IMG/VR virus record: IMGVR_UViG_3300010403_000705
Coordinates: 368,845 to 432,844 of that record
Strand: one strand, 5' to 3'
Source: a virus
DNA: 64,000 bases
The translations under genes were made by a program, and so were the position numbers. Within the stretch, counting starts at the first letter, position 1, and each line of letters begins with the position of its first letter. Below the pieces are notes generated by a model. The model was not told the origin of the DNA. It ran no database searches and worked only from the letters and a program-made list of their open reading frames with translations. Shown one piece after another: positions 18,305 through 62,253 of the stretch.

Positions 18305-19228
18305 ATGGACAAAATATTATTGATAGATGGTATGAATTTTATTTGGAGAGCGAATGTTTATTTTCCCTTCAAAGACAAGAAACACTTTTTATGCACACGT
18401 TGTGATGAGAGTTTAAATCATTCACACGCAGAACATTGTCAATGTGGTGGAAGTTGGATAAATGAAAAATGTGAGCATGAACCAAATAAAGAATTTATTC
18501 TTATTTATAATTTTTTTCGAAATCTTCGTTCCATAATAGAAACGTTTTCTCCTGACAAATGTTTTTTTGTTTTAGAAGGTCATCCACAATTTAGATATGA
18601 TTTATTCGCCGAATACAAAGCAAATAGGATTATTAAACAAGCGCATAAAAAAGAAGATTTGGATAAGTTTTATCATTCCAAAAAAGAAATAATAAAATTA
18701 TTACAATTATTACCATTCACAATTTGTCGTGCTGCTAACTATGAATGTGATGATGTAATAAATACTCTGTGCGAAAATATGAAAGAAGAATTATTAATTG
18801 TATTAAGTAATGATTCTGATTATATTCAGCTTCTTCAGAGGGGTTATAAAAATTGTAGGATTTACAATCCTATTAAAAAAGAATTTATGATAGCCCCGCC
18901 TTATCCTTATGTAGCATGGAAATGTTTAAATGGTGACAAATCAGATAATATTCCACCCTTATTAAAACCAAAAAAAGCATTAGAGACCATAACTAATCCA
19001 GAAAAATTTAAAACATTTTTATCTACTGAAGAGAATAGAGCTAATTTTAATATTAGTCGACAGTTAATAGAATTTAGATCTGTTCCAGAAGAAGAGATTA
19101 TTATAAGTGAAGGAGAAAAAAAATTCTCCTTCTTAAAAGAAGAATTTGTTCGTATGAAGTTTGACTCATTAACTAATGAAAAATCATGGATGAAATTTGT
19201 TAAAACTTTTAATTGTCTTAAATTTTGA
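18305..19228 (+). CDS. 5'-3' exonuclease / FEN-family nuclease with zinc insert
   Basis: The N-terminal LLIDGMNFIWRA is the first acidic metal motif. FVLEGHPQFRYDLFAEYKANR is the helical arch/clamp segment. YECDDVINTL and LSNDSDYIQLL are the metal-binding Asp clusters. WKCLNGDKSDNIP is the helix-hairpin-helix GDxSDNIP motif. It removes RNA primers or flaps during replication. Unusually, residues ~30-58 hold an inserted zinc site (CTRC, then CQC and CEH) not found in T4 RNase H or Pol I exonucleases. Confidence 0.9.
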   Translation: MDKILLIDGMNFIWRANVYFPFKDKKHFLCTRCDESLNHSHAEHCQCGGSWINEKCEHEPNKEFILIYNFFRNLRSIIETFSPDKCFFVLEGHPQFRYDLFAEYKANRIIKQAHKKEDLDKFYHSKKEIIKLLQLLPFTICRAANYECDDVINTLCENMKEELLIVLSNDSDYIQLLQRGYKNCRIYNPIKKEFMIAPPYPYVAWKCLNGDKSDNIPPLLKPKKALETITNPEKFKTFLSTEENRANFNISRQLIEFRSVPEEEIIISEGEKKFSFLKEEFVRMKFDSLTNEKSWMKFVKTFNCLKF

Positions 19229-26155: not shown

Positions 26156-26291
26156 TAAAATGGCAAAATTATGGTTTTTAAAGTTTAAAAAAGATAATCG
26201 ATGTTAAAAAAATAACTAGGACTAAGTTATATCATTATCATTAATTATCTGTTTATCGTTGAAATTTTTGTTCAAATATAAGGAATGTATT

Positions 26292-27851
26292 ATGTCTTCA
26301 AAAAAGTTATTTTCTAATAAGTCTGTGGATGTTAAGTTAGTTAAACCAACTGATACAGTAAATAATGCTGGTGGTCAAGCCTATTCTTTAGATGATAAGG
26401 CAGCCTTGGCTCAATTAGCCATGACGGGATGTTTCAATGGTACTTATTATGTTTCTGATGAAGATCAATTAAAAAAAGTATTAGATTTAGCAAATAAATT
26501 GCCAGCAAAATATGTTGCACAACTAGCTGTTTATTCTCGTCAATATGGTTTAATGAAAGATATGCCAGCAGTTTTGGCAGCGGTAGTGGCAGGTAAGGAT
26601 TCAGATCTTTTATCAAAAATTTTTGATAAGGTAGTAGATTCCCCCAAAATGTTAAGAAATTTTGTACAAATTCTTCGTTCAGGAGTAGTAGGTCGCAAAT
26701 CTTTAGGCACTAGACCTAAGAAATTGGTTCAAAAATACCTTGAATCTTTAACTGACGAACAATTATTTATGGCTGATGTTGGAAACGACCCATCTTTACA
26801 AGATGTAATTAAATTGGTTCATCCTAAACCAACTACCAAACAACGTTCTGCTATGTTTGCATATCTCTTAAATAAAGAATATTCCCAGGATGATTTATCT
26901 TTATTAGTAAGACAATTTGAGGACTTTAAAAAGGACATGTCCAAGGACATTCCTAATGTACCTTTTCAAAAATTAACTGCTTTACCACTTACTTCTGATC
27001 ATTGGAAAAAAATTGCTTCAAATGCCACTTGGAATCAAATCAGACAAAATCTTAATACATTCGCTCGTCATAATGTCTTAAGTGATCAGGCATTATTGAA
27101 TCTTATATGTTCTAGAATAGAGGATAAGGAATTAGTTAAAAGAGCTAGAGTATTTCCTTATCAGCTTTTTACCACGTTTCAAAATTTGGAATCAAGTATA
27201 CCAACTAAGATCTCAGTTGCTTTACAAAAAGCTGCTGAACATGCATTGGAAAATATTCCAGAATTTAAAGGTAAAGTCTATGTTATGGTAGATACTTCTG
27301 GTTCTATGAGTTCGCCAGTGACTGGTAAACGTGGTACAGCTACTACAAAAATGTCTTGCATTGATGTTGCTGCTTTAGTGGCGGCAGCTATAATGAGAAA
27401 AAATTCTGATGTAGAAGTATTACCTTTTGATACTAAAGTTCATACACATAAACTGAATCCACTTGATTCGATTATGACTAATGCAAAGATTTTATCTGCT
27501 TTTGGTGGAGGAGGTACGAATTGTTCTCTTCCATTACAAGAATTGAATCGTAGAAAAGCCATGGGAGATTTAGTTATTTATGTAAGTGATAATGAATCTT
27601 GGGTTGATTCTAGCAGAGGAAAGGGGACTGCAACTATGAATGCTTGGGAAGTTTTTAAAGCTCGTAATAGAAATGCAAAATTAGTTTGTATTGATTTGAC
27701 ACCCAATACTTCTACACAAGTTTATTCTAAAAAAGACGTTCTTAACATCGGAGGTTTCTCAGATTCTGTATTTGAAGTGATAAATAAGTTCATGGAGTAC
27801 GGAAATGACGCAAATCTATGGATTAGAACAATTGAGCAGATTAAACTTTAA
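26292..27851 (+). CDS. rsr: TROVE-domain protein (Ro60/Rsr-like)
   Basis: 519 aa from ATG 26292, preceded by AAGGAATG; the in-frame ATG at 26259 has no support. The N-terminal two thirds is a helical-repeat TROVE module (LAMTGCFNGTYY, FVQILRSG, LLNLICSRIEDK). The C-terminal VWA domain has the MIDAS motif VDTSGSMS near residue 334. Ro60/Rsr forms a ring that binds Y RNAs and misfolded or tRNA-like RNAs, and in bacteria works with exonucleases and RNA ligases. Here the setting of aberrant tRNA-like RNAs and a Y-like hairpin (4599) suggests a phage-encoded RNA-binding or quality-control particle. Confidence 0.92.
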   Translation: MSSKKLFSNKSVDVKLVKPTDTVNNAGGQAYSLDDKAALAQLAMTGCFNGTYYVSDEDQLKKVLDLANKLPAKYVAQLAVYSRQYGLMKDMPAVLAAVVAGKDSDLLSKIFDKVVDSPKMLRNFVQILRSGVVGRKSLGTRPKKLVQKYLESLTDEQLFMADVGNDPSLQDVIKLVHPKPTTKQRSAMFAYLLNKEYSQDDLSLLVRQFEDFKKDMSKDIPNVPFQKLTALPLTSDHWKKIASNATWNQIRQNLNTFARHNVLSDQALLNLICSRIEDKELVKRARVFPYQLFTTFQNLESSIPTKISVALQKAAEHALENIPEFKGKVYVMVDTSGSMSSPVTGKRGTATTKMSCIDVAALVAAAIMRKNSDVEVLPFDTKVHTHKLNPLDSIMTNAKILSAFGGGGTNCSLPLQELNRRKAMGDLVIYVSDNESWVDSSRGKGTATMNAWEVFKARNRNAKLVCIDLTPNTSTQVYSKKDVLNIGGFSDSVFEVINKFMEYGNDANLWIRTIEQIKL

Positions 27852-29319: not shown

Positions 29320-30150
29320 ATGATAAAAAGAGATGGTGTTAAGTTAATGAATGCAAGAACTAATAACGTTTCTATTGCCAAAGAAACGCTGGCTATTTTG
29401 AAACAAAAATATTATAATTCTCCCAATGGTAACAAAATAAATATTTCTGAAGCATTGGATGCCGCTGTTAAAGGATCTGTTCTTTATCAAAATGAAATAA
29501 GTTTTGTTGAAAATGAGTCGGTAAAATTACCATTAATAGAAGTTACTCCTGAAACAACTGCTCAAGCAGCACAACGATTATTATGTATACATAAAGATGT
29601 AGTAGTTTTAAATTTTGCTTCTGCTAGAAATCCAGGCGGTGGATTTTTATCTGGTGCTATAGCACAAGAAGAAGATTTATGTCGCTGTTCTGGATTATAT
29701 TCTTGTCTTAAATCTAAGCCAATTTTTTATAATGAAAATATATTATGTGATAATACATATTATACAGATAATATTATTTACTCACCAAATGTTCCATTTT
29801 TTAGAAGCGAACATTTTTTATTTTTAGAAAATCCATTTTGTGTTTCTGTTATAACTGCTCCAGCACCTAATATTAGAGGTATGAATAATATCGATGAAAA
29901 ACAATTATTTGATGTATTGAGTAATAGAATATCTAAAATATTAAAAATTGCTGCATATCATAATCATAAAAATATTATTTTGGGCGCATTTGGATGTGGA
30001 GCATTTGGTAATGATCCATTAATGGTTGCACATATTTTTTTAAATTCTTTGAAAATGTTTAATTATTTTGGAAATGTATGTTTTGCTATTTATTCTAATA
30101 AAGGAGATTTAACTAATTTAAATGCATTTAAAAAAATATTTGATAAATGA
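29320..30150 (+). CDS. TIGR02452-type poly(ADP-ribose) glycohydrolase
   Basis: 276 aa from ATG 29320 (ATG 29347 is an alternative). NFASARNPGGGF, then EEDLCRCSGLY, matches the catalytic loop of bacterial-type PARG (GGG-x(6-8)-QEE). This is a macrodomain fold that removes ADP-ribose polymers or units from proteins. The tandem acidic residues after AQ are the catalytic Glu pair. A later GAFGCGAFGNDP is the diphosphate-binding loop. It would counter an ADP-ribosylating host defence or toxin, in company with the ARH-type enzyme at 53190. Confidence 0.9.
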   Translation: MIKRDGVKLMNARTNNVSIAKETLAILKQKYYNSPNGNKINISEALDAAVKGSVLYQNEISFVENESVKLPLIEVTPETTAQAAQRLLCIHKDVVVLNFASARNPGGGFLSGAIAQEEDLCRCSGLYSCLKSKPIFYNENILCDNTYYTDNIIYSPNVPFFRSEHFLFLENPFCVSVITAPAPNIRGMNNIDEKQLFDVLSNRISKILKIAAYHNHKNIILGAFGCGAFGNDPLMVAHIFLNSLKMFNYFGNVCFAIYSNKGDLTNLNAFKKIFDK

Positions 30151-32316: not shown

Positions 32317-32392
32317 GTCTCTGTAGTCTAACGGATAGGGCAACTGCCTTCTAAGCAGTGCGGTGCAAGTTCGAATCTTGCCAGAGGCACCA
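32317..32392 (+). tRNA. tRNA-Arg(TCT)
   Basis: Acceptor GTCTCTG/CAGAGGC, discriminator A, encoded CCA. Anticodon stem ACTGC/GCAGT with loop CTTCTAA (TCT, reads AGA/AGG). T-loop TTCGAAT. First gene of the main array. Confidence 0.95.
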
Positions 32393-32481
32393 ATCTTCAA
32401 TTATCCTGAAGAGATTAATAGAAGGATTAATTAGCAAACCATATTAACTTATGTTTAGGCTAGTAATTGCGGACAGTACAT

Positions 32482-32558
32482 GGAGGAGTAGCTCAGTGAA
32501 AGAGCACGATGCTATAAACATAACGAGGTCCTTGGTTCAAGTCCAAGCTCTTCCACCA
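32482..32558 (+). tRNA. tRNA with abnormal anticodon arm (Met-like?)
   Basis: Acceptor GGAGGAG/CTCTTCC, D-stem GCTC/GAGC, T-stem CTTGG/CCAAG with T-loop TTCAAGT, and encoded CCA are normal. The anticodon arm between A26 and the variable loop is 19 nt instead of 17. It folds either with a 9-nt loop or as a stem with a two-base bulge and loop CTATAAA, so anticodon ATA, TAA or CAT cannot be chosen. The body resembles Met/Val tRNAs. Confidence 0.75.
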
Positions 32559-32585
32559 ATGATCTACAACAAAGGCATCCAGGGA

Positions 32586-32665
32586 CACTGAACCCGCTTC
32601 GCAGGTGGGCAGTGCCACCCTCTCTGACAGAGGGGAACGTCACCAGTAACTAGACGTGACACGTT
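32586..32665 (+). ncRNA. GC-rich structured segment between tRNAs
   Basis: Three successive hairpins: CACTG/CAGTG (32586-32614) with an inner CCCGC/GTGGG, CCCTCT/AGAGGG (32618-32634), and GTCAC/GTGAC with flanking AAC/GTT (32636-32665). The stretch is markedly more G+C-rich than the phage around it and has no plausible gene. Either an imported structured RNA or a remnant. Bases 32666-32738 show nothing else. Confidence 0.35.
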
Positions 32666-32738
32666 GGAGAGAAAATGTGAATGTTAGACCCAAATCACTA
32701 CACATAATAAAATATGCATAAATTGATATATAAATATT

Positions 32739-32812
32739 GGGCTTGTAATTAAATGGGATAATAATTCGTTTGCACCGAATTTTTGAGAGTTCGATTCTCT
32801 CCGGGTCCACCA
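32739..32812 (+). tRNA. tRNA-Ala(TGC)
   Basis: Acceptor GGGCTTG/CGGGTCC with wobble pairs, including G3-T70 (the Ala identity pair). Discriminator A, encoded CCA. Anticodon stem ATTCG/CGAAT, loop TTTGCAC (TGC). Short D-stem ATT/AAT. Confidence 0.9.
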
Positions 32813-32833
32813 GAATTTAAGGTAAATTTCATT

Positions 32834-33034
32834 ATGAATGTGAAAGATTTGAAGAAAAAGTTAGATGGATTACCCGATAATCTTGAAGTAAAAATTGCTT
32901 ATGGTTGCCAGCTTTTTGAAACGGCAGGTAGTAAAGGTCATACTTTAGACGAGATTCAAGATGTAGTGATAGTGCACCATAACGATTGTATTGATGAAGT
33001 TTGGTTATATAATGAATATGCGTCTGAGGTTTAA
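32834..33034 (+). CDS. Unknown protein, 66 aa
   Basis: MNVKDLKKKLDGLPDNLEV is a recurrent start among small phage proteins that predict a regulatory or adaptor role ('DLxxxLxxLPDDxEV'). Function unknown. Starts 22 bases after tRNA-Ala and ends before another small gene. Confidence 0.65.
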   Translation: MNVKDLKKKLDGLPDNLEVKIAYGCQLFETAGSKGHTLDEIQDVVIVHHNDCIDEVWLYNEYASEV

Positions 33035-33046
33035 GTTTTTAAAAAT

Positions 33047-33220
33047 ATGAATAAAACAGAACAGTCAGAATTATTAAAAATAAAAGAGTTTTTGGAATCT
33101 CTGTTAGAATCATTATCTAGAAAAGAATTGTTGTACTTTAAAGATAGATTTGAAAAATTAATGATTGAGAATAGTTATTCTGGTTTGTTAGATTCATTTA
33201 ACAAAGATACAAAAAAGTAA
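33047..33220 (+). CDS. Unknown helical protein, 57 aa
   Basis: A Leu/Glu/Lys-rich helical sequence (MNKTEQSELLKIKEFLESLL), likely a small coiled coil. It lies between the previous gene and tRNA-His with one base to spare before the tRNA. Confidence 0.5.
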   Translation: MNKTEQSELLKIKEFLESLLESLSRKELLYFKDRFEKLMIENSYSGLLDSFNKDTKK

Positions 33221-33221
33221 T

Positions 33222-33300
33222 GGTGATCGTAGTGTACTGGTTTTGTGCATGACTGACTGTGACTCAGTAGGTGCGGGTTCAAATCCCGTCGATCACCCCA
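33222..33300 (+). tRNA. tRNA-His(GTG)
   Basis: Encodes the extra G-1, then GTGATCG/CGATCAC, C73 and CCA. Anticodon stem ACTGA/TCAGT with loop CTGTGAC (GTG). D-stem GTGT/GCAT with an 11-nt loop. All His identity elements present. Confidence 0.94.
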
Positions 33301-33324
33301 ATTAGCAATAGTACAGGTAAATTT

Positions 33325-33398
33325 GCCTCGTTCGTCTAATGGTAGGACAAAGCCCTTTCAAGGCTTGAACAGGAGATCGATACTCCTACGAGGTACCA
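33325..33398 (+). tRNA. tRNA-Glu(TTC)
   Basis: Acceptor GCCTCGT/ACGAGGT, discriminator A, encoded CCA. Anticodon stem AAGCC/GGCTT, loop CTTTCAA (TTC). Natural partner of the GluRS at 9337. Confidence 0.94.
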
Positions 33399-33405
33399 AG
33401 TATAT

Positions 33406-33480
33406 TGTGGAGTAGAGCATCGGTAGCTTGCTTGGCTCATAACCAAGAGGTAGGAAGTTCAATTCTTCCCTCCGCAACCA
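33406..33480 (+). tRNA. tRNA-Met(CAT)
   Basis: Acceptor TGTGGAG/CTCCGCA, encoded ACCA. Anticodon stem CTTGG/CCAAG, loop CTCATAA (CAT). The paired first base and the absence of three G-C pairs in the anticodon stem argue for elongator rather than initiator Met (or Ile-2 if modified). Confidence 0.92.
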
Positions 33481-33500
33481 ATAGAAAGACAAACCGTAAA

Positions 33501-33725
33501 ATGAGAAAAACTGGTGTTATAGTATATTCAAATTCTTCAAAAGAAACCGTGGATTACTATTGTGAGGCTCTGAAAAAACATTTTGCAATGCCTCTGTATT
33601 TCGAAATTGAAATGATTAATAATCAATATTCAATTTTGTTTGATCCTTGGGACGGATATCTTGTAAATACTAGTGGATATGTTGATGAAATTAAAAAGTA
33701 TGTGACTAAAATACAAAAAGAATAA
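33501..33725 (+). CDS. Unknown protein, 74 aa
   Basis: A small alpha/beta protein (MRKTGVIVYSNSSKETVDYY). The longer frame reaching back into tRNA-Met is spurious; ATG 33501 is chosen. Function unknown. Confidence 0.5.
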   Translation: MRKTGVIVYSNSSKETVDYYCEALKKHFAMPLYFEIEMINNQYSILFDPWDGYLVNTSGYVDEIKKYVTKIQKE

Positions 33726-33787
33726 TATGATGACTGTGGACAAAGTTATTATGAGGAACCATTATATGGTTGTGGTGGTTATTAAAA

Positions 33788-33952
33788 ATGTGTGATATTT
33801 GTAATGATGATTCTTTAAATGAAAGCTTCGTTGAAGAACAGAATTTTAAATTCTGGCAACGTTTGAAAAATAAATTAAGCGAAGAAGATTTAGAAAAGAT
33901 GTATCCTAATAAGAATAATGTTGTCATTAAACGTAATGATGATTATCAATAA
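33788..33952 (+). CDS. Unknown acidic protein, 54 aa
   Basis: MCDICNDDSLNESFVEEQNF has a CxxC pair near the start, then an acidic/aromatic helix. Ends two bases before tRNA-Gln. Function unknown. Confidence 0.45.
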   Translation: MCDICNDDSLNESFVEEQNFKFWQRLKNKLSEEDLEKMYPNKNNVVIKRNDDYQ

Positions 33953-33953
33953 T

Positions 33954-34027
33954 TGGAATATCGTCCAACGGCAGGACAACGGGCTTTGAACCCGTGAATC
34001 TAGGTTCGAATCCTAGTATTCCAGCCA
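33954..34027 (+). tRNA. tRNA-Gln(TTG)
   Basis: Acceptor TGGAATA/TATTCCA with T1-A72 (a Gln feature), discriminator G, encoded CCA. Anticodon loop CTTTGAA (TTG). T-loop TTCGAAT. Confidence 0.95.
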
Positions 34028-34054
34028 ACTATGAGTAGGCTTAAAAGGATAAAT

Positions 34055-34246
34055 ATGTCAATAAAAAATGCTGATGAATTGATTGATTTATTTAAAAATA
34101 AATTAAATAAACCATCATTGAAGAAAGACGTACAAATTCTTAAAGAAAGCATAAAGATTATATATGAAGATAAAAATTCAAACAATGAAATTAAAGAGAA
34201 AGCATTGTTAAGTCTACAATATTTACAAGAAAAAACAGAGAACTAA
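34055..34246 (+). CDS. Unknown helical protein, 63 aa
   Basis: ATG 34055 preceded by AAAAGGAT is chosen over ATG 34031 next to the tRNA end. Lys/Glu-rich helical sequence. Function unknown. Confidence 0.45.
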   Translation: MSIKNADELIDLFKNKLNKPSLKKDVQILKESIKIIYEDKNSNNEIKEKALLSLQYLQEKTEN

Positions 34247-34256
34247 TTGTTCTTAA

Positions 34257-34364
34257 GCAAGAATAGTTTAATGGTAGAACGCTGGAGTCCATCCAGAAGC
34301 GGTACAAAAAGAATCCACGTGCACTGGGTAAAAAAATTCTTAGGTTCAAATCCTCCTTCTTGCT
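34257..34364 (+). tRNA. Aberrant tRNA-Gly(TCC)-like, shrunken loop and long insert
   Basis: Acceptor GCAAGAA/TTCTTGC, discriminator T (Gly-like) and a D-arm like Gly tRNAs. The anticodon hairpin is CTGGA-GTCCA-TCCAG, a five-base loop carrying TCC with no usable U33. A ~45-nt insert follows in the variable region, containing a helix AAGAAT/ATTCTT around CCACGTGCACTGG. The 3' end is TCTA instead of TCCA. Probably not a standard elongator. Could be a decoy or a decaying gene. Confidence 0.6.
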
Positions 34365-34460
34365 CTATGACGAATGCTAAAATGGGATTACATTTAATTT
34401 ACAAAAACATATCTCATTTAATTTTTGTCGTCATAATATTTGGGTACGTACCTCAAATAT

Positions 34461-34548
34461 GGATGAGGATCGGAGCGGGGGCGAATTGGTAAAATATTAG
34501 CTAGTCCCGAGCACTCTAAAGTTGTTGGTTCAAATTCAATCGTATCCA
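34461..34548 (+). tRNA. Degenerate tRNA-like sequence, anticodon unassigned
   Basis: T-arm GTTGG-TTCAAAT-TCAAT and 3' CGTATCC-A are clear. The best 5' partner, GGATGAG, gives six of seven pairs. A G-rich D-loop is present, then two short hairpins (GCT/AGC around AGTCCCG, ACT/AGT around CTAA), neither a normal anticodon arm. No CCA. Probably a degraded or highly modified tRNA. Confidence 0.45.
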
Positions 34549-34669
34549 CTTAGATTTTATGTTCCCTGAAAAAGTATACCCGTTAGTTTGGGCGGAGAAC
34601 ACTATAGCTGAATGCAGATAGGTTTACATCGGAAAAAAATAGACTTATCAAATTTTGTCAGCTTAATAT

Positions 34670-34744
34670 AGAGTAATAGTTTAATGTAAAGAATAGCCTC
34701 ATTAACAGAGGAAGATTTTGGTTTAAATCCAAATTACTCTACCA
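34670..34744 (+). tRNA. tRNA with TAA anticodon but short variable loop
   Basis: Acceptor AGAGTAA/TTACTCT, discriminator A, encoded CCA. Anticodon stem GCCTC/GAGGA with loop ATTAACA reading TAA (UUA codon). T-stem TTTGG/CCAAA with loop TTTAAAT. Leu tRNAs of bacteria have a long variable arm; this has ~4 nt. So either it is charged with another amino acid or it is a rearranged tRNA. Confidence 0.7.
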
Positions 34745-34752
34745 CCTATAAT

Positions 34753-34838
34753 GCCGACGTTGAGCAGGTGGTGGGCTCAGTGCGCTGTAAACGCATATCC
34801 TTAAGGACTTGGAGGTTCGATTCCTCTCGGCGGCACCA
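34753..34838 (+). tRNA. tRNA-Tyr(GTA)
   Basis: Acceptor GCCGACG/CGGCGGC (one A-G mismatch), discriminator A, encoded CCA. D-stem GAGC/GCTC, anticodon stem TGCG/CGCA with loop CTGTAAA (GTA). A variable arm (TCC-TTAA-GGA) as expected for bacterial Tyr. Confidence 0.93.
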
Positions 34839-34895
34839 AGATAAAATTATTTTTATTTGGGGTATAATTAGGTATAACTATAACAAGTTGTAAGA

Positions 34896-34930
34896 ACAAT
34901 ATTTAACTCACTACCGCAATTAAATATTGT
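34896..34930 (+). other. 11-bp hairpin upstream of a CDS
   Basis: ACAATATTTAA (34896-34906) pairs with TTAAATATTGT (34920-34930), 13-nt loop. It lies in the 5' leader of the gene at 34965. No T-run follows. Possibly a leader regulatory element. Confidence 0.45.
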
Positions 34931-34964
34931 ACAGACTAAATCTAGCGGTGTTATTAGAGGTTTT

Positions 34965-35393
34965 ATGATAAAGATCAAGAAACTTGAAAAAATAGAAACC
35001 AATCAAATGGGTGATAATTATCTTGACCATTTAGTAACTGTTGATATAGATAGTATTACACATAGAGTTTGGGTAAGTTGTAGTGGTTCTCTAATGCGTA
35101 CCGAGAAGAAATCTTTAAAAGATGTAAGTAAGTTTATCAATGATAAATTAGAAAAGTCATTATATAATGATATCAGTTTTGAACATTGGTTAGGAAATCA
35201 AGGAGATTATGCTGCTCCGTATGTTGTGTTAAAAGCAGGCAATGTTGATAAGGTAGTAGATGATGAGTGTTTTTATCATGAATACCCACGTTTGATATTC
35301 ACTACTCCACCACCTCCTCCAGCAGAACCAAAACAGAAACCAACGAATACTATTAATGACGAAATTAAAAAATCAATTATTAATGTAACTTAA
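34965..35393 (+). CDS. Unknown protein, 142 aa, proline-rich end
   Basis: Not recognised. Beta-rich N-terminal ~100 residues, then PPPPPAEPKQKPTN linker and a short tail. Followed immediately by a strong terminator, so it is the end of a transcript. Confidence 0.6.
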   Translation: MIKIKKLEKIETNQMGDNYLDHLVTVDIDSITHRVWVSCSGSLMRTEKKSLKDVSKFINDKLEKSLYNDISFEHWLGNQGDYAAPYVVLKAGNVDKVVDDECFYHEYPRLIFTTPPPPPAEPKQKPTNTINDEIKKSIINVT

Positions 35394-35399
35394 TGAAAA

Positions 35400-35428
35400 A
35401 AGTATGGTAGATTTTATCTACCATACTT
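35400..35428 (+). terminator. Terminator-like hairpin
   Basis: AAGTATGGTAGA (35400-35411) pairs perfectly with TCTACCATACTT (35417-35428), 5-nt loop; followed by AATAAAA, not a T-run. Likely end of the 34965 transcript, before tRNA-Pro. Confidence 0.6.
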
Positions 35429-35435
35429 AATAAAA

Positions 35436-35508
35436 CGGGAATAAAGTGTAGCCTGGTTGCACACGTCGTTTGGGGCGATGTAGGGTGGTTCAAATCCAAT
35501 ATTCCCGA
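35436..35508 (+). tRNA. tRNA-Pro(TGG)
   Basis: Acceptor CGGGAAT/ATTCCCG with C1-G72 and A73 (Pro identity). Anticodon loop TTTGGGG (TGG) with normal U33. CCA not encoded. Confidence 0.92.
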
Positions 35509-35510
35509 CT

Positions 35511-35590
35511 AGATAAAATATGGTGCGGTGACGCCTGTAAATAATTTCTAAAGAAAATTATTTATCCGTTGCAACTACGGTATTTTATCT
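35511..35590 (+). ncRNA. tRNA-like cloverleaf with 10-bp anticodon helix
   Basis: The closing helix AGATAAAATA/TATTTTATCT is 10 bp. A D-like arm GGTG-CGGTGA-CGCC follows (35522-35535). A 10-bp arm TAAATAATTT/AAATTATTTA is closed by the 7-nt loop CTAAAGA. A 4-bp T-like arm is CCGT-TGCAACT-ACGG (35566-35580). All four helices are perfect or nearly so, but acceptor and anticodon stems are too long and no CCA follows. It cannot be an ordinary elongator tRNA; a tRNA mimic is likely. Confidence 0.6.
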
Positions 35591-35602
35591 AAAAATTATT
35601 AT

Positions 35603-35705
35603 GCACATCTAAAAAGTCTCCAGCAGAACCCCAGGAGGCACGAATCTAAGGAGTAGTGGCAGTCGAATTAACGATAGATACGTTTGAACTTAGAATGTGT
35701 TGTGC
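35603..35705 (+). ncRNA. Structured RNA candidate between tRNA genes
   Basis: GCACATCTAA (35603-35612) can pair with TTAGA, TGTG and GTGC near 35690-35705 with small bulges, closing a ~100-nt element. An inner CTCC/GGAG helix lies around 35628-35637, and ACG/CGT pairs near 35671-35682. No coding potential. Position between two tRNA genes suggests co-transcription. Confidence 0.35.
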
Positions 35706-35717
35706 TTAATGATATTT

Positions 35718-35793
35718 CGGGAATGAGGTGTAACTTGGTTGCATGGGAGCTCTGGAAGCTTTTGGAGGCGTTCGAATCGCACATTCCCGACCA
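35718..35793 (+). tRNA. tRNA-Pro(TGG) with C33
   Basis: Acceptor CGGGAAT/ATTCCCG, A73, encoded CCA; C1-G72 marks Pro. Best anticodon arm is GGAGC-TCTGGAA-GCTTT, giving TGG at 34-36 but C at position 33 where almost all tRNAs carry U. The same TC-NGG-AA loop occurs in the Pro tRNA at 36307. Confidence 0.8.
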
Positions 35794-35900
35794 GTAGAGA
35801 GATCGTATTAGCAGATAAAACTTTAGTACGAGTTAAAGGAATTAGTAATATATCTTAAATGATAAATGTTTGGCGGTGCAAGACCCGCCTCTCTACTCCA
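35794..35900 (+). ncRNA. Enlarged tRNA-like RNA abutting tRNA-Pro
   Basis: Starts on the base after the previous CCA. Acceptor GTAGAGA/TCTCTAC, then T and encoded CCA (35894-35900 region). T-like arm GGCGG-TGCAAGAC-CCGCC with an 8-nt loop. The middle (~70 nt) forms TCGTA/TACGA (35803-35831) with a large internal loop, and a TTAA-AG/CTTAA hairpin. No standard D- or anticodon arm. The TGCAA T-loop is shared with the element at 35511. Confidence 0.5.
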
Positions 35901-35946
35901 AAACCTAAATTAAAAATCAACACAAACTCATAACAAGGAGCTTATA

Positions 35947-36204
35947 ATGTCAATTGTACTATGGATTCTATTTGGACTTGTAGTTGGTGTTATCGCTAAA
36001 TTATTGACTCCTGGTCGTGAACCTAGTGGATTTGTTTTAACTACTCTATTAGGTATTGGTGGTTCGTTATTGGGAGGATTTCTAGGAAAATTGATTGGTA
36101 TATATCCAACGTACCAATCAACGGGTGGATTTTTTATGGCTATTTTAGGAGCTGTCGTTATACTAGCGATATATAACTCTTTTCTATTTCGTAGAACTTT
36201 TTAA
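35947..36204 (+). CDS. GlsB/YeaQ/YmgE-family membrane protein
   Basis: 85 aa with three hydrophobic helices separated by short Gly-rich loops. LLTPGREPSGF followed by a Gly-rich GIGGSLLGGFLG is the family signature. In bacteria these are small stress-linked inner-membrane proteins ('transglycosylase-associated'), with no proven enzyme activity. A strong AAGGAG lies upstream of the ATG. Uncommon in phages; probably acquired from a host. Confidence 0.88.
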   Translation: MSIVLWILFGLVVGVIAKLLTPGREPSGFVLTTLLGIGGSLLGGFLGKLIGIYPTYQSTGGFFMAILGAVVILAIYNSFLFRRTF

Positions 36205-36229
36205 TAAAAAAAGTATTTAAAAATCTTCA

Positions 36230-36299
36230 GAATATGTGGTCTAAGGGCAGGGCAGGTGGAAGTGTTCATCACGTTCAGGTTCGATTCCTGACATATTCT
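36230..36299 (+). tRNA. tRNA with 9-nt anticodon loop, identity unclear
   Basis: Acceptor GAATATG/CATATTC, discriminator T, no CCA. D-stem GTCT/GGGC, T-stem TCAGG/CCTGA with loop TTCGATT. The anticodon arm GGTGG...TCACG (end mismatch) leaves the loop AAGTGTTCA, nine bases. GTG, GTT or TTC could lie at the decoding position. The D-arm is of the Gly/Glu type. Confidence 0.65.
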
Positions 36300-36306
36300 G
36301 TTTTAT

Positions 36307-36382
36307 CGGGAAATGTTGTAATCTGGTAGCATCCGTGCTCAGGAAGCATGTAGTATGAGTTCAAATCTCGTTTTCCCGACCA
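36307..36382 (+). tRNA. tRNA-Pro(AGG) with C33
   Basis: Acceptor CGGGAAA/TTTCCCG (C1-G72), A73, encoded CCA. Anticodon stem CGTGC/GCATG is intact and gives loop TCAGGAA: C33 and anticodon AGG, with an unmodified A34 unusual for bacteria. Third Pro tRNA, second with C33. Confidence 0.8.
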
Positions 36383-36497
36383 TATTGTAATTAAGTGTAA
36401 TGGTGCATCATCTCGATAATGATACGTACGTTCAATTCGTACACTTCCAGTCGGATATAGTAGAGAGAAAAAGGTTCGATTCCTTTAATTACAATAT
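36383..36497 (+). ncRNA. Nested tRNA-like element with two T-arms
   Basis: An outer 12-13 bp helix (ATATTGTAATTAA from 36382 with TTAATTACAATAT, 36485-36497) encloses a D-like arm, an anticodon-like arm ATCAT-CTCGATA-ATGAT (CGA), and a first T-arm GTACG-TTCAATT-CGTAC followed by ACTTCCA. About 28 nt later comes a second T-arm AAAGG-TTCGATT-CCTTT. So a shorter tRNA-like unit with its own CCA sits inside a larger one. It may be two fused tRNAs or a designed double structure. Confidence 0.5.
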
Positions 36498-36502
36498 ACT
36501 AT

Positions 36503-36587
36503 GGATCTGTTCTCTAGCGGCAATGAGAAGAGCCTTTTAAGCTCTCGGCGAAAGCCTACGTGGGTTCGAGTCCCTCCAGATCCACCA
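36503..36587 (+). tRNA. tRNA-Lys(TTT) with long variable arm
   Basis: Acceptor GGATCTG/CAGATCC, A73, encoded CCA. Anticodon stem AGAGC/GCTCT, loop CTTTTAA (TTT). The variable region contains a GGC-GAAA-GCC hairpin, as in Leu/Ser/Tyr tRNAs and not in normal Lys tRNAs. LysRS is encoded at 4975. Confidence 0.85.
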
Positions 36588-36674
36588 CATCAAAACGATG
36601 TAGTAAGAAAATGAATATAGATTACGATTTTCTAGATATTATGATGTTACAATATTTGAATAGAGAGATAACAA

Positions 36675-36914
36675 ATGAAGTCAAGGTATATAAATAATTC
36701 TGCAATGAATAGTGCTGAATTTGGAAAATTCATGCAAAGTGAAGAAACTAAAGCCGCCATAGAAGAAGGATATAATATTATTAATATTAAAGGTTATACA
36801 AAAGGCAGTGGATCGGAAGTTTGTTATTGTGTTTCTATGAAAAAACCTTTTTTTAAATTTATTTGTGACGAGATAAATTCTACTATAAGACTATGGTTTA
36901 TGTTAGATAAATAA
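36675..36914 (+). CDS. Unknown protein, 79 aa
   Basis: Not recognised. Small acidic alpha/beta protein. A 28-codon frame (36611-36697, MNIDYDFLDIM) overlaps its start and could be a leader peptide or spurious. Confidence 0.5.
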   Translation: MKSRYINNSAMNSAEFGKFMQSEETKAAIEEGYNIINIKGYTKGSGSEVCYCVSMKKPFFKFICDEINSTIRLWFMLDK

Positions 36915-36920
36915 TTTTAT

Positions 36921-36995
36921 TCCTACCTAGCTCAATGGTAGAGCGTTCGGCTGTTAACCGAATGGTTCCAGGTTCGAGTCCTGGGGTAGGAGCCA
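36921..36995 (+). tRNA. tRNA-Asn(GTT)
   Basis: Acceptor TCCTACC/GGTAGGA, discriminator G, encoded CCA. Anticodon loop CTGTTAA (GTT) with stem TTCGG/CCGAA. Canonical throughout. Confidence 0.96.
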
Positions 36996-37003
36996 ATAAA
37001 TAG

Positions 37004-37096
37004 CATGGAGGATACCAGCAGCGAGAGCAGCTTACCTTAAGTGGCAACTGGATAAAATCTTCCCAAAGTAGTTTGCTCAAACTACATAGATCCATG
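37004..37096 (+). ncRNA. Structured RNA candidate between two tRNA-Asn
   Basis: Closed by CATGGA (37004-37009) with TCCATG (37091-37096). Contains a 7-bp hairpin GTAGTTT-GCTC-AAACTAC (37068-37085), an inner CCAG/CTGG pairing and a CTTA/TAAG hairpin. No open frame. Size and closing stem resemble the other tRNA-like elements, but no T-loop or CCA is evident. Confidence 0.4.
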
Positions 37097-37125
37097 ATAT
37101 AACATGGTTATACTATTTATTCTAT

Positions 37126-37201
37126 GGTACGTTAGCTGGCTTGGTGCAGCGCCCGCCTGTTAAGCGGATGACGGAGGGTTCAATTCCCTCACGTATCGCC
37201 A
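37126..37201 (+). tRNA. tRNA-Asn(GTT), second copy
   Basis: Acceptor GGTACGT/ACGTATC, discriminator G, encoded CCA. Anticodon stem CCGC/GCGG, loop CTGTTAA (GTT). Sequence differs widely from the copy at 36921, so it is not a recent duplicate. Confidence 0.92.
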
Positions 37202-37251
37202 TCATGATTTGTGAATAAAATATATTCATATAATGATATATAATTAGAAAT

Positions 37252-37326
37252 AGCTTCATCGTTCAATGGTTAGGACACTGGCTTGTCACGTCAGTAATGA
37301 GGGTTCGATTCCCTTTGGAGCTGCCA
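37252..37326 (+). tRNA. tRNA-Asp(GTC)
   Basis: Acceptor AGCTTCA/TGGAGCT, discriminator G, encoded CCA. Anticodon stem CTGGC/GTCAG, loop TTGTCAC (GTC). T-loop TTCGATT. Confidence 0.92.
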
Positions 37327-37421
37327 ATAAACATAATTAGGTATGTAGTAATTTTATAATGTTTATTCCCAGAACTTATCACTAGTCAAGGCAAAGTATA
37401 GTAATAATAATTCATTACAAT

Positions 37422-37739
37422 ATGAATATTTCTCAATTATGCAAATTAGCAGACAAGTTTGAAGAAAAAATTAAATTAGCTACTGCTAGTAATAGTTGCT
37501 CACGTTGTAATGATATTCATTGTTGTATGAATTTTGGTAATTCTCATAGTCTAGATCAAGATAATAATGAGGCAAAATGTGAGGGTTACAAAAAATCTCC
37601 TGTAGGATCTCCGAGACAAAGATCTTTTTGTGCAAGACATTGTGCTATGAAAAAACAAAGAACTTCTATAGAAGTTGCAAATGATCCAGAATCTTGTATT
37701 AATAAAGGTTTAAGGCGTTGGAAATGCCGTTGTGGTTGA
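37422..37739 (+). CDS. Cys-rich protein with phage N-terminal motif, 105 aa
   Basis: MNISQLCKLADKFEEKIKLA is followed by Cys clusters CSRCNDIHCC, CEGY, FCARHC and a final WKCRCG. At least ten Cys suggest one or two zinc sites. The helical N-terminus is of the same type as in the proteins at 21912, 23945 and 45745 (a possible shared targeting/processing signal). Confidence 0.6.
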   Translation: MNISQLCKLADKFEEKIKLATASNSCSRCNDIHCCMNFGNSHSLDQDNNEAKCEGYKKSPVGSPRQRSFCARHCAMKKQRTSIEVANDPESCINKGLRRWKCRCG

Positions 37740-37769
37740 TATAAAACAACTACATAAATAGTGATATAT

Positions 37770-37845
37770 AGGTGTGTAGCAATTCGGCAATTGCACTTGC
37801 TTGTCAAGCAAGACCAAGCGGGATCGACACCCGTCATGCCTGCCA
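37770..37845 (+). tRNA. tRNA-Asp(GTC), second copy
   Basis: Acceptor AGGTGTG/CATGCCT with wobbles, discriminator G, encoded CCA. Anticodon stem CTTGC/GCAAG, loop TTGTCAA (GTC). Not a recent copy of the one at 37252. Confidence 0.92.
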
Positions 37846-37848
37846 TAT

Positions 37849-37924
37849 AGTCCATTAGCTCAGGGGTTAGAGCGCCTGTCTTATAAACAGGAAGTCGTTG
37901 GTTCAATTCCAACATGGACTACCA
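37849..37924 (+). tRNA. tRNA-Ile(TAT)
   Basis: Acceptor AGTCCAT/ATGGACT, A73, encoded CCA. Anticodon stem CCTGT/ACAGG, loop CTTATAA (TAT, reads AUA). An AUA-reading tRNA suits the AT-rich codon use and avoids lysidine-dependent tRNA-Ile2. Confidence 0.95.
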
Positions 37925-37975
37925 TATTATACTAAAAACGCAAGATTGCGATACTATAAAATTGGAGTGTCAATC

Positions 37976-38071
37976 ATGAAAAAAGTCATCAATAACTTGA
38001 TGTGTTCGCTATGCTATCTGCTACCATTACACAATACAAAATATTGTGTTTGTCCATGTCATTGGGATTAA
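37976..38071 (+). CDS. Tiny Cys-rich peptide, 31 aa
   Basis: MKKVINNLMCSLCYLLPLHN then KYCVCPCHWD. Four or five Cys could bind zinc, or form a membrane-active peptide. GGAG lies upstream. Low confidence because of size. Confidence 0.35.
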   Translation: MKKVINNLMCSLCYLLPLHNTKYCVCPCHWD

Positions 38072-38100
38072 ATATTAGTACATAATAATATTTCATACAT

Positions 38101-38322
38101 ATGAAAAAAATGCAAGATTGTGATTTTGTCGTAGGTTTTAATAATAAAGGAATCTATGTTTTAAAAGATAGAAATTCATTTTCAGATGAAATTGCTATAA
38201 CATTTCAAGAATTTTTTCATAGATTATCTGATTATTCTTTATATTTAGAGCCAATAAAGATATTCGAGCCTCTAATACAATTTATGTATAAAAAAATTAT
38301 CTCGTTGAAATGTTTTTTATAA
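38101..38322 (+). CDS. Unknown protein, 73 aa
   Basis: Not recognised. Ends in a basic-hydrophobic tail (KKIISLKCFL) similar to the F-L/F-W tails of the 50-62 kb proteins. Confidence 0.5.
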   Translation: MKKMQDCDFVVGFNNKGIYVLKDRNSFSDEIAITFQEFFHRLSDYSLYLEPIKIFEPLIQFMYKKIISLKCFL

Positions 38323-38330
38323 AATAAAAT

Positions 38331-38579
38331 GCGATTGTGGTGAAAGAGGAAAACACACCATCAAAAATGTTAAAAGAAGATGGCATATTAAAAATGGCAT
38401 CATAGTATTTTTTAATATAAGCTTTATAAGGTGATGCCTAGGAAAGATATATTTATAAAATATGTAACGGGTTTGCGGAAGCACCGGACAGGGTTTTGAC
38501 AAGTTCTGTAGGGAAGCGCGTTTGCCTAATAGTTATAGTGTGATGTTATATACGGGTTCAAATCCCGTCAATCGCACCA
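38331..38579 (+). ncRNA. 249-nt RNA with tRNA-Leu-like ends and large insert
   Basis: The 5' GCGATTG pairs perfectly with 3' CAATCGC, followed by A and encoded CCA. A Leu-type D-arm (GGTG...CACC) and T-arm ACGGG-TTCAAAT-CCCGT are present. Between them CCATC/GATGG encloses a 16-nt loop with TTAA. About 170 nt of extra sequence follow, including helix GGCATCA/TGATGCC (38395-38438 region) and a G+C-richer domain at 38468-38525. It could be an intron-containing tRNA-Leu(TAA), a tRNA-mRNA-like hybrid, or a new RNA. Group I core elements and a tmRNA tag frame are not evident. Confidence 0.55.
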
Positions 38580-38715
38580 TTTTGCAAATTTAGGATATAT
38601 GATGCATTATAATATAATAAATGCTCATAATGAAATTGTGCATATTAAGAGATATAAAGTAAGAAGAAGTATGATAGAGAAATTGGTATAAGTAGAATAC
38701 AATAATTTAAGTTAT

Positions 38716-38792
38716 CGTCCTTTAGCTCATTTGGTTAGAGCGCCGTTCTGATAAGGCGGAGGTGCTGGGATCGTAGCCCAGGAGGACGACCA
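38716..38792 (+). tRNA. tRNA-Ile(GAT)
   Basis: Acceptor CGTCCTT/GAGGACG, A73, encoded CCA. Anticodon loop CTGATAA (GAT), stem CCGTT/GGCGG with two wobble pairs. T-arm CTGGG-ATCGTAG-CCCAG. Confidence 0.92.
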
Positions 38793-38805
38793 ATTAGAAA
38801 ATAAC

Positions 38806-38881
38806 GGCACTGTCGTATTTGTGGTCAAGACTCGGGTCTGAAAAGCCCAGAAAAGCGGATCGTTACCGCTCGGTGCCGCCA
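38806..38881 (+). tRNA. tRNA-Phe(GAA)
   Basis: Acceptor GGCACTG/CGGTGCC, encoded GCCA (discriminator G, where A is usual for Phe). Anticodon loop CTGAAAA (GAA) on stem CGGGT/GCCCA (one mismatch). D-arm shortened to GTC/GAC. Confidence 0.85.
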
Positions 38882-38884
38882 TTA

Positions 38885-38961
38885 GGGTTTGTAACTCAAT
38901 TGGAAGCAGTAGCTGGCTCTTAACCAGTGTTGTGAGAGTTCGAGTCTCTCCAGACCCACCA
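38885..38961 (+). tRNA. tRNA-Lys(CTT)
   Basis: Acceptor GGGTTTG/CAGACCC, A73, encoded CCA. Anticodon stem CTGG/CCAG, loop CTCTTAA (CTT). Last gene of the main array. From here to 39200 only a decayed zinc-finger frame is seen. Confidence 0.93.
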
Positions 38962-47070: not shown

Positions 47071-47438
47071 ATATAGTTGGTTAAGATAATCGCTGCCAAT
47101 TTTAATTGGGAGAGGAAGTTCCGAACACCAATAAAGCAGAGTGCCAGTTAACGGCTGGGTGCAGTGATGCAACTGAAAGTGTAACAGAAAATAAACCGCC
47201 TGTAAAGGTAAGGGTGAAATGGTGAAAAATGGCGAACTAAGAGTGCGCCATGTGTAAGAGACCACCGCATATTTGGTAACAAATATGGCAATACAAACCA
47301 CACTCGGTGCAAGACAAATAGAAAACGTTTGAGAATCGCTTATTCGATGTTTTCGGGTTGTTGCTTGATCCAAATAGTGATATTTGGACTAGATTAATGA
47401 TTATCCTAGACAGAATTCGGGCTACTTATTAACTATAT
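47071..47438 (+). ncRNA. rnpB: RNase P RNA (type A)
   Basis: P1 is ATATAGTT/AACTATAT at the two ends, and P2 is GATAATC/GATTATC. The conserved cores are present in order: GAGGAAGTTCCGAAC (CR-I), ACAGAAA...ACCGCC, GGTAAGGGTGAAATGGTG, AAGAGTGCGCC, GGTGCAAGACAAATAG, and ACAGAATTCGGGCTA (CR-V). About 368 nt, normal for bacterial RNase P RNA. It is the catalytic RNA that cleaves tRNA 5' leaders, presumably with a host protein subunit since no rnpA is seen. Phage-encoded copies are rare. Confidence 0.93.
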
Positions 47439-47472
47439 TTCTTTTATAAAAGTTATCTAAAACATCAATACC

Positions 47473-48141
47473 ATGAAAATACCTCTTATTTATCCCAAAA
47501 TTCCTAATGGTAATAATTGCACTCTTAAAGAATGTACCGCTTTTGAGAAATTAGATGGCACCAATATTCATTTTGTATGGGAAAAATTGGCGTACCAAAT
47601 ATTAGGAAACGGGTGGGTTTCTTTTGGTACAAGGCGTGATAGTTTTTCTTTGGAAACAAAAGAAATAGATAATTTTGTATTTAAACATCCAAATTTGAAA
47701 TTGGTTATACCAGATTTTGAGGATAGATTAAGTGAAGATTTAAATAAAAAATTTGGTTCTTCTAATTATGAGAGAGTCCGTTTGTTTACAGAGTTCTTAG
47801 GAGCCAATTCTTTTGCGGGCACACATGATAAAAATGAAAAACAATATCATACAATAATAGATTTGCAAATAGATCAGCAATTAGGCGATAATTCTTTTCT
47901 TGATCCAAAATCATTTATTAATGGGTATAAAATGTTTGGTATACCAAAAGTAGTATACCAGGGTAAATATACTGGGCAATTTGTACAAGATGTGAGGACT
48001 GGAAAATATTTAGTTAATGAGGGTGTAGTTTGTAAAGGTATTGTAGATAATAAAATCTATAGAGTAAAAATTAAAACTGATGCTTATTTAAGAAAATTGA
48101 AAAACGTATTTCATAATTCTTGGCAAGATTATTGGGAATAA
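47473..48141 (+). CDS. Rnl2-like RNA ligase
   Basis: Nucleotidyltransferase motifs in order: KLDGTN with Lys26 as the AMP acceptor (motif I), SFGTRRD, FTEFLGANSF (IIIa), EGVVCKG (IV) and YRVKIKTDAY (V). At 222 aa it is a minimal catalytic domain, close to T4 Rnl2 without the C-terminal domain. It seals nicks in RNA, for example in cleaved tRNAs, and lies 34 bases after the RNase P RNA. Confidence 0.85.
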   Translation: MKIPLIYPKIPNGNNCTLKECTAFEKLDGTNIHFVWEKLAYQILGNGWVSFGTRRDSFSLETKEIDNFVFKHPNLKLVIPDFEDRLSEDLNKKFGSSNYERVRLFTEFLGANSFAGTHDKNEKQYHTIIDLQIDQQLGDNSFLDPKSFINGYKMFGIPKVVYQGKYTGQFVQDVRTGKYLVNEGVVCKGIVDNKIYRVKIKTDAYLRKLKNVFHNSWQDYWE

Positions 48142-53189: not shown

Positions 53190-54104
53190 ATGTCATTTAA
53201 GTTTGCTACGTTAGTCGGCTGTGCCATTGGTGATGCTTTAGGTAATCCATTCGAAACAAAATTATCATCATATCAACCTTTACAAGATTGGGATGGAACC
53301 TTCAAAGAAGGTGGAACATTTTGGTGGGGTCAACCAGGACAATATACTGATGATACATTGATGAGTTTAGGATTAGCTAATAGTTTAGTTCGCTGTAAGG
53401 GTTTTGATCCAGTAGATGCTGCCCAAGAATATTTAGCTTGGTATAATTCAAAAAATACGCGAGGTATTGGCGGCACAACTGCTCGAGCTATGCATAACTT
53501 AAAACAAGGTATTCCTTGGACACATAGTGGGATTACTGGCGACACAATTGGTGGTAATGGTACAGCTATGAGGGTATCTCCATTAGGAATCGTTTACAAA
53601 AACGATATCTATAAGCTACTGCAATATGCCATACAAGACGCTCAAATTACTCATAATGCAATAGAGCCAAAGCTAGGATCAATGGCAGTTGCAATTGGCA
53701 CAGCTATGTTAGCGTCTGGTAAATTTTCTTCGATAGATGTGTTAGAAAAATTAATAGAGATGTTGGTAGATTCTATAGTCAAATCTAAATTACTTTTAGT
53801 ACAAGAACATTTGAAAAAAGGTAGCGAACATAAAGATGCATTATTAGAAATTGGATCTTCTGGTTATGTTCCAGAAACTGTTGGAGCTGCTTATTACTGT
53901 TTACTAGCAAATAATAATTTCAAAGACACAGTGATTATGGCAGTTAAAGCAGGTGGTGATACAGATACCACTGCTGCAATTGCTGGAGCTATGGCTGGCA
54001 CCTTATATGGTATAGATGTCATTCCAGATGAATATAAAAATGGAGTTGAAAATTTTGAAATGCTTTCTTCATTAGATGAAGAACTTACTAATATCTTGAT
54101 ATAA
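53190..54104 (+). CDS. ADP-ribosylglycohydrolase (ARH/DraG-type)
   Basis: 304 aa. GCAIGDALGNPFE is the N-terminal loop. QYTDDTLM near residue 53 (TDDT) and GGDTDTTAAIAGA near 255 are the Mg-binding Asp clusters. It removes ADP-ribose from Arg, Ser or nucleic acid bases depending on subfamily. With the PARG-type enzyme at 29320 it gives the phage two ADP-ribose erasers. Confidence 0.93.
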   Translation: MSFKFATLVGCAIGDALGNPFETKLSSYQPLQDWDGTFKEGGTFWWGQPGQYTDDTLMSLGLANSLVRCKGFDPVDAAQEYLAWYNSKNTRGIGGTTARAMHNLKQGIPWTHSGITGDTIGGNGTAMRVSPLGIVYKNDIYKLLQYAIQDAQITHNAIEPKLGSMAVAIGTAMLASGKFSSIDVLEKLIEMLVDSIVKSKLLLVQEHLKKGSEHKDALLEIGSSGYVPETVGAAYYCLLANNNFKDTVIMAVKAGGDTDTTAAIAGAMAGTLYGIDVIPDEYKNGVENFEMLSSLDEELTNILI

Positions 54105-62218: not shown

Positions 62219-62253
62219 ATACTATCAATAATGAAGGTGTTTTGGTAATAGTT

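Follow-up and report, generated by a model that had tools for sequence, protein, structure and literature searches.

A conserved cloverleaf-shaped element, not a tRNA, in the tRNA arrays of two Ro60-encoding huge phages

A four-way-junction fold is conserved in two huge phages, where it is present as a single copy each, starting exactly at the 3' end of a tRNA-Pro gene and, in one of them, within an insertion. One copy lies in the window, the 64,000-nucleotide stretch of DNA analysed here, which comprises bases 368845–432844 of a 432,844-base virus record (a 433-kb phage). The cloverleaf at 35511–35590 is not a tRNA. It is very probably a real conserved structured element and looks like a small RNA family that was previously undescribed. 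The best explanation, to which we assign a probability of about 0.4, is that some Ro60-encoding huge phages carry among their tRNA genes the gene of a small structured RNA that belongs to a new family and acts in trans.

The sequence-only reading had described a four-helix cloverleaf with 10-bp acceptor and 10-bp anticodon helices, and these helices can be read directly in the window. The features of the locus are as follows (loops in square brackets).

35436–35509, + strand: tRNA-Pro(tgg), directly upstream of the cloverleaf; its 3' end is ACTA, not ACCA, and abuts the cloverleaf or overlaps it by one base
35511–35590, + strand: cloverleaf (four-way-junction) RNA element, 80 nt, supported by the sequence, a homolog found with a single-sequence covariance model, and pair conservation
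35511–35520, + strand: closing (acceptor-like) stem, 5' strand AGATAAAATA, pairing with 35581–35590; 10/10 pairs kept in the homolog
35522–35535, + strand: D-like arm GGTG[CGGTGA]CGCC; 4/4 pairs kept in the homolog, one changed on both sides
35538–35564, + strand: middle (anticodon-like) hairpin, 10 bp, loop CTAAAGA; pairing conserved, sequence not
35566–35580, + strand: T-like arm CCGT[TGCAACT]ACGG; 4/4 pairs kept in the homolog, one changed on both sides
35581–35590, + strand: closing stem, 3' strand TATTTTATCT; no CCA follows
35795–35903, + strand: separate tRNA-like element with a TGCAAGAC loop, a 7-bp end stem and a 3' CCA

The full order of the window copy is AGATAAAATA-T-GGTG[CGGTGA]CGCC-TG-TAAATAATTT[CTAAAGA]AAATTATTTA-T-CCGT[TGCAACT]ACGG-TATTTTATCT. 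The closing stem consists of 10/10 standard pairs (11 if T35510–A35591 is counted), the D-like arm of 4 bp (one a G-U pair) with a 6-nt loop, the middle hairpin of 10 bp with a 7-nt loop, and the T-like arm of 4 bp with a 7-nt loop. The linkers between the helices are 1/2/1/0 nt long (T/TG/T/none), and the 3' flank is AAAAATT. The element is intergenic, with no overlapping ORF of at least 60 aa, and gave no Rfam match even with permissive thresholds.

Related huge-phage tRNA arrays were gathered first via the Ro60 protein and then via the Y-RNA-like repeat of the array. The same architecture was first noticed by eye in the array (L026) of a 268,344-base phage (G006); looking for the fold in other huge phages was what the sequence-only reading had proposed. 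To avoid circularity, a covariance model (R2) was built from the window sequence alone and used to search 526 kb. It matched L026 1251–1320 with 52.1 bits and a rough E-value of 2.7e-10 for the 526 kb (approximate, the calibration being short), and its remaining matches were the window site, the reverse strand of that site, or weak chance matches. A sequence-only search misses the L026 copy, and thus the match between the two rests on structure. Every pair in the closing, D-like, and T-like stems is kept (18/18), with both-sided changes at three pairs, one per stem, and one-sided changes at two; the fold thereby withstood the pair-conservation test on which the earlier reading had staked it. 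When the partners were slid by 1–3 columns, 39–50% remained paired versus 100% in the actual alignment, while a shuffle control with two sequences was uninformative (68/500 reached the observed covariation). The linkers are identical in both copies. The middle hairpin has neither its sequence nor its length in common between them but is paired in each, with an 8-bp stem and a 3-nt loop in the predicted fold of the L026 homolog.

The minimum-energy fold of the window copy is an extended hairpin (−25.5 kcal/mol), in which the D-like segment pairs with the T-like segment, and the cloverleaf (−17.1 kcal/mol) lies 8.4 kcal/mol higher; because of this computed optimum, the cloverleaf is not established by energy alone. 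For the L026 homolog, the predicted optimum is the cloverleaf itself. The extended hairpin was rejected as the selected fold, as approximately 3/9 of its D–T pairs (counted by hand) are kept in the homolog versus all pairs of the cloverleaf. Together, the alignment provides good evidence that selection acts on the cloverleaf rather than on the extended hairpin, within the limit that the covariation comes from two confident sequences.

The distribution of the element is narrow. Six array-bearing phage genomes were searched directly (G000, G006, G002, and G008 whole; G001 and G007 mostly), and copies were found in 2/6, one in G000 (the window phage) and one in G006, with none convincing in the searched parts of the other four. 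A tentative third relative, which we did not count, is present in the nearest relative, G001 (L148 14881–14937, − strand, 27 bits, rough E 0.007); its D-like and T-like loops are the same as those of the cloverleaf, and its D-like stem has just 3 pairs. An exact 22-mer of the cloverleaf had no match in IMG/VR, degenerate two-arm patterns returned the known copies alone as convincing in the same database, and blastn of both copies against annotated phages gave chance matches only. The other IMG/VR pattern matches inspected lacked the closing stem or lay within coding sequence. A pattern of the two-arm type found no real member in 84,980 bacterial and archaeal species, where the best matches had no closing stem and one (L234) reads as coding. 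Matches of model R1 on G022 (L080) and of R2 at L002 2622 were likewise discarded, both being in regions that read as coding. No cloverleaf was seen near the Ro60 genes of Myxococcus phage Mx1 or of a 635-kb uncultured phage.

The window copy is embedded in an array of about 20 ARAGORN tRNA genes (bases 32317–38961) with further tRNA-like segments between them, and in each phage the element begins where a tRNA-Pro gene ends. Compared with two syntenic phage arrays, G006 carries ~133 nt of inserted sequence that separates tRNA-Pro(cgg) from a YrlA-like RNA, a difference indicating that a unit was gained or lost. The insertion contains the cloverleaf and a second tRNA-like segment (L026 1321–1383) with the loop TGCAACT, a 3' CCA end, and a predicted three-helix fold. 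In G001, a Y-like RNA and not the cloverleaf follows the orthologous tRNA-Pro. From the insertion and this replacement, small structured RNAs seem to be exchanged in tRNA-Pro slots.

This setting bears on the main alternative to a trans-acting RNA gene, namely an element that acts in cis within the polycistronic tRNA transcript, either as a stable structured spacer averting misfolding of the neighbouring precursors or as a processing mark beside tRNA-Pro. It would account for the abutment on tRNA-Pro in both phages, for the unconserved sequence of the middle hairpin, and for the different structured RNA in the orthologous slot of the nearest relative, as if any compact fold sufficed. In a mere spacer, however, there would be no need for the linkers to be identical and the loops almost identical between two distant phages, and other tRNA-Pro genes of the same arrays have no cloverleaf. 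We regard this alternative as possible but unlikely.

Several other features of the region were recorded. The window includes a tRNA-like gene at 36391–36495 that by eye seems to be split by a second tRNA-like stretch or to enclose it, and a weak tRNA match at G000 405230–405338 goes with it. A long non-coding stretch is conserved in three phage arrays (L009 ~1995–2250, L031 ~1890–2130, and L028 ~6100–6390); it contains GGGGGCGTA and TCGGTTGCGCTTGA and has no Rfam match at the gathering score. Further along the window are a class A RNase P RNA (47073–47440; Rfam RF00010, 247.5 bits) adjoining an RNA ligase gene (47473–48141), a phage-encoded EF-G (57713–59794), a class II (Asp/Lys/Asn-type) tRNA synthetase (4975–6534), and a Glu/Gln-type tRNA synthetase (9337–10677). 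PARG-like, ADP-ribosylglycohydrolase, and two R2K ATP-grasp genes (29320–30150, 53190–54104, 60341–61093, and 62242–63135) may point to an ADP-ribosylation-based conflict.

A larger surprise than the cloverleaf is that these arrays contain Y-RNA-like and YrlA-like RNAs and that Ro60 is encoded close to the array in all six phages. The sequence-only reading had envisaged a huge-phage setting and binding to a TROVE protein, and such a protein is indeed encoded in the window together with two Y-RNA-like elements.

26259–27851, + strand: gene of the Ro60 (TROVE plus Ro60-type vWA) protein, upstream of the array (PF25045, E 6e-18; PF05731, E 6e-6)
34369–34432, + strand: Y-RNA-like element 1, in the same array as the cloverleaf
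34606–34663, + strand: Y-RNA-like element 2, in the same array as the cloverleaf

Ro60 was found near the array in 6/6 phages, four of which had been found via the RNA repeat and not via Ro60, and the Ro60 model gave one match, below the cut-off, in 14 control genomes. Y-RNA-like elements also recur among the tRNA genes of L002 (17948–18009, 18137–18195, and 19294–19365), and more are present in L003, L009, L012, L021, L026, L028, and L031. An alignment of fourteen short elements shows a basal helix, a distal helix of 8 bp, and an internal motif that is conserved (AATGC/TTTTTG; AATGC / TTTTTGTC); for 11/14 predicted pairs, one sequence or more has both partners changed. Longer versions contain T-arm and D-arm segments in permuted order (T-arm before D-arm). 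This is the layout described for bacterial YrlA, in which a stem formed from both ends is combined with a domain resembling the D, T, and acceptor arms (PMC8394870). In these YrlA-like RNAs a Y-type stem encloses the permuted T-arm and D-arm, and some have both acceptor halves and a CCA; they are located at L009 1485–1591, L026 928–1031 and 1383–1611, L028 5312–5418 and 5867–6086, L031 1276–1382, and L002 about 18950–19100. Myxococcus phage Mx1 encodes a Ro60 (47% identical) close to a tRNA array that contains at least one YrlA-like RNA. This RNA lies at L295 3637–3740 (OR576727.2), a site annotated as a short hypothetical protein (WNM70101.1), and another candidate is at about 3285 of L295. 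Ro60 genes of jumbo phages are already known (PMC7824862), and no description of their Y RNAs was found in the literature searched, which is not proof of absence.

The proximity of Ro60 to the array in both cloverleaf carriers and the abundance of Y-like RNAs in the arrays raise the possibility that the cloverleaf is a client or partner of Ro60, which would give the phage Ro60 system an effector RNA in addition to the Y-like RNAs. Like bacterial YrlA or Y RNA, the tRNA-mimicking partner of Ro60/Rsr, it is a non-coding tRNA-like RNA with a closing stem and arms in a Ro60-encoding genome. It differs in lacking the Y-stem motif expected of a Ro60-binding basal stem, since its closing stem (AGATAAAATA/TATTTTATCT) is a perfect helix without the AATGC / TTTTTGTC internal motif that the local Y-like RNAs have in common. 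It also has a variable middle hairpin, and its arms follow the order D–hairpin–T as in tRNA, not the T-before-D order of the local YrlA-like RNAs. Four Ro60 phages, moreover, carry no cloverleaf. We consider this partnership improbable.

The comparison with canonical tRNA (Rfam RF00005) is equally two-sided. The shared features are the order and number of arms, the 7-nt T-like loop TGCAACT, the GG of the D-like loop (in both copies), and the location in a tRNA array. Unlike a tRNA, the cloverleaf has a 10-bp closing stem, a 4-bp T-stem, a 1-nt variable region, and a 6-nt D-loop, with no conserved anticodon loop in the middle hairpin and no encoded CCA, a feature that 18/20 ARAGORN tRNAs of the array do encode. 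The acceptor/T stack comprises 10 + 4 bp (14) in both copies rather than 7 + 5 (12), and neither copy has a 7-nt anticodon loop on a 5-bp stem; in the window copy the loop CTAAAGA sits on a 10-bp stem, and its U33 fits by position. The tRNA covariance model matched neither 35511–35590 (E up to 10) nor the L026 copy (E up to 5). At the elbow, the window loop TGCAACT fits the T54/C56/A58 pattern except for G55, and the corresponding loop of the homolog, CGAAACT, has neither T54 nor C56. The tRNA mimicry proposed by the sequence-only reading is supported for the topology and not for the elbow signature, and its suggestion of a mimic family linked by the T-loop finds no support in the homolog. The loop that it had paralleled at 35877 does exist (GGCGG[TGCAAGAC]CCGCC) but belongs to the different, CCA-ending structure listed above, and the parallel is weak because these phages also have ordinary tRNA genes that end in CCA and contain a TGCAAnn loop.

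The topology, the location beside tRNA-Pro, and a T-like loop resembling the variant T-loops of neighbouring tRNAs would also suit a tRNA, such as a duplicate of tRNA-Pro, that has diverged strongly or decayed while drifting in the array. Yet every helix is intact and covaries in the homolog, the closing stem is longer than that of a tRNA instead of eroded, and neither copy is recognised by the tRNA model. The earlier judgement that the element is no standard tRNA and unlikely to be a decayed one is in agreement with these results, and decay, already disfavoured by pair conservation, is a quite improbable origin.

Still less probable is an inverted repeat acting at the DNA level (a cruciform or a miniature mobile element) instead of an RNA gene. 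In its favour, both phages have the same outer seven base pairs (AGATAAA/TTTATCT) while the inner pairs vary, and one copy lies within an insertion. Against it, there is one copy per genome, the inner arms are conserved as stems along with their loops and linkers, and R2 strongly favours the + strand over the − strand (112 versus 35 bits).

The chance of such a fold was estimated with dinucleotide shuffles of the window. A loose four-way-junction descriptor, whose sole + strand match in the window is the cloverleaf site (0 on the − strand), was satisfied 0.18–0.20 times per strand in shuffles; this fell to 0.012 when a middle hairpin of at least 9 pairs was demanded and to 0.002 (7 in 3445) with GG in the first loop as well. 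The cloverleaf strand also folds far more stably than its shuffles (z −5.8, 0/200). A fold that arose by chance in AT-rich DNA, for which the ~0.2 loose matches per window strand would speak, is thus highly implausible given the rarity of the strict descriptor and the existence of a homolog with a rough E of 3e-10.

Returning to the trans-acting RNA gene, a possible course of action can be outlined from the position and shape of the element. The cloverleaf would be transcribed together with the tRNAs, and the cut that forms the tRNA-Pro 3' end would also generate its 5' end, so that it would be released by tRNA 3' processing. Its closed 10-bp stem may protect it from exonucleases. The tRNA-shaped RNA might then accumulate and, with no CCA and no standard anticodon loop, would probably undergo neither charging nor decoding. 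It could act as a decoy that occupies a tRNA-binding factor, most plausibly a nuclease or modifying enzyme with which the host targets tRNAs. The tRNA-like domain of YrlA has been proposed to work as a competitive inhibitor (decoy) (PMC7790460). The phage encodes Ro60, RtcB (in the same genome), RNA ligase, and tRNA synthetases, and thus appears to handle tRNA damage actively. Counting against the best explanation, there are only two confident members, the tRNA elbow signature is not conserved, and 4/6 related phages have no cloverleaf. A bolder version, in which the element is the founding member of a class of phage non-chargeable tRNA-shaped RNAs that absorb or misdirect host tRNA-cleaving immunity together with the phage Ro60/Y-RNA and RNA-repair set, is doubtful at present.

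Structured, untranslated small RNAs among phage tRNA genes have likely precedents in RNA C and RNA D of phage T4, whose function is unknown. GOLLD and ROOL are ornate phage non-coding RNAs near tRNA islands, also of unknown function (PMC12286853); they share with the cloverleaf the proximity to phage tRNA genes and differ from it in being elaborate and hundreds of nucleotides long, and the cloverleaf has no Rfam counterpart. Phage tRNA arrays are usually annotated by tRNA finders only, so that non-canonical RNAs between the tRNAs are overlooked. Here, at least one gap of a tRNA array is occupied by a conserved RNA that is laid out like a tRNA yet has no features for translation, and the genomes concerned encode Ro60 and Y-like RNAs as well. 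For the Ro60/Y-RNA side, a laboratory handle is offered by Myxococcus phage Mx1, whose record carries a name and a host. If the element is a processing element, it would add to the view of how giant phages organise their own translation toolkit; if the decoy role is true, it would amount to an RNA-based counter-defence.
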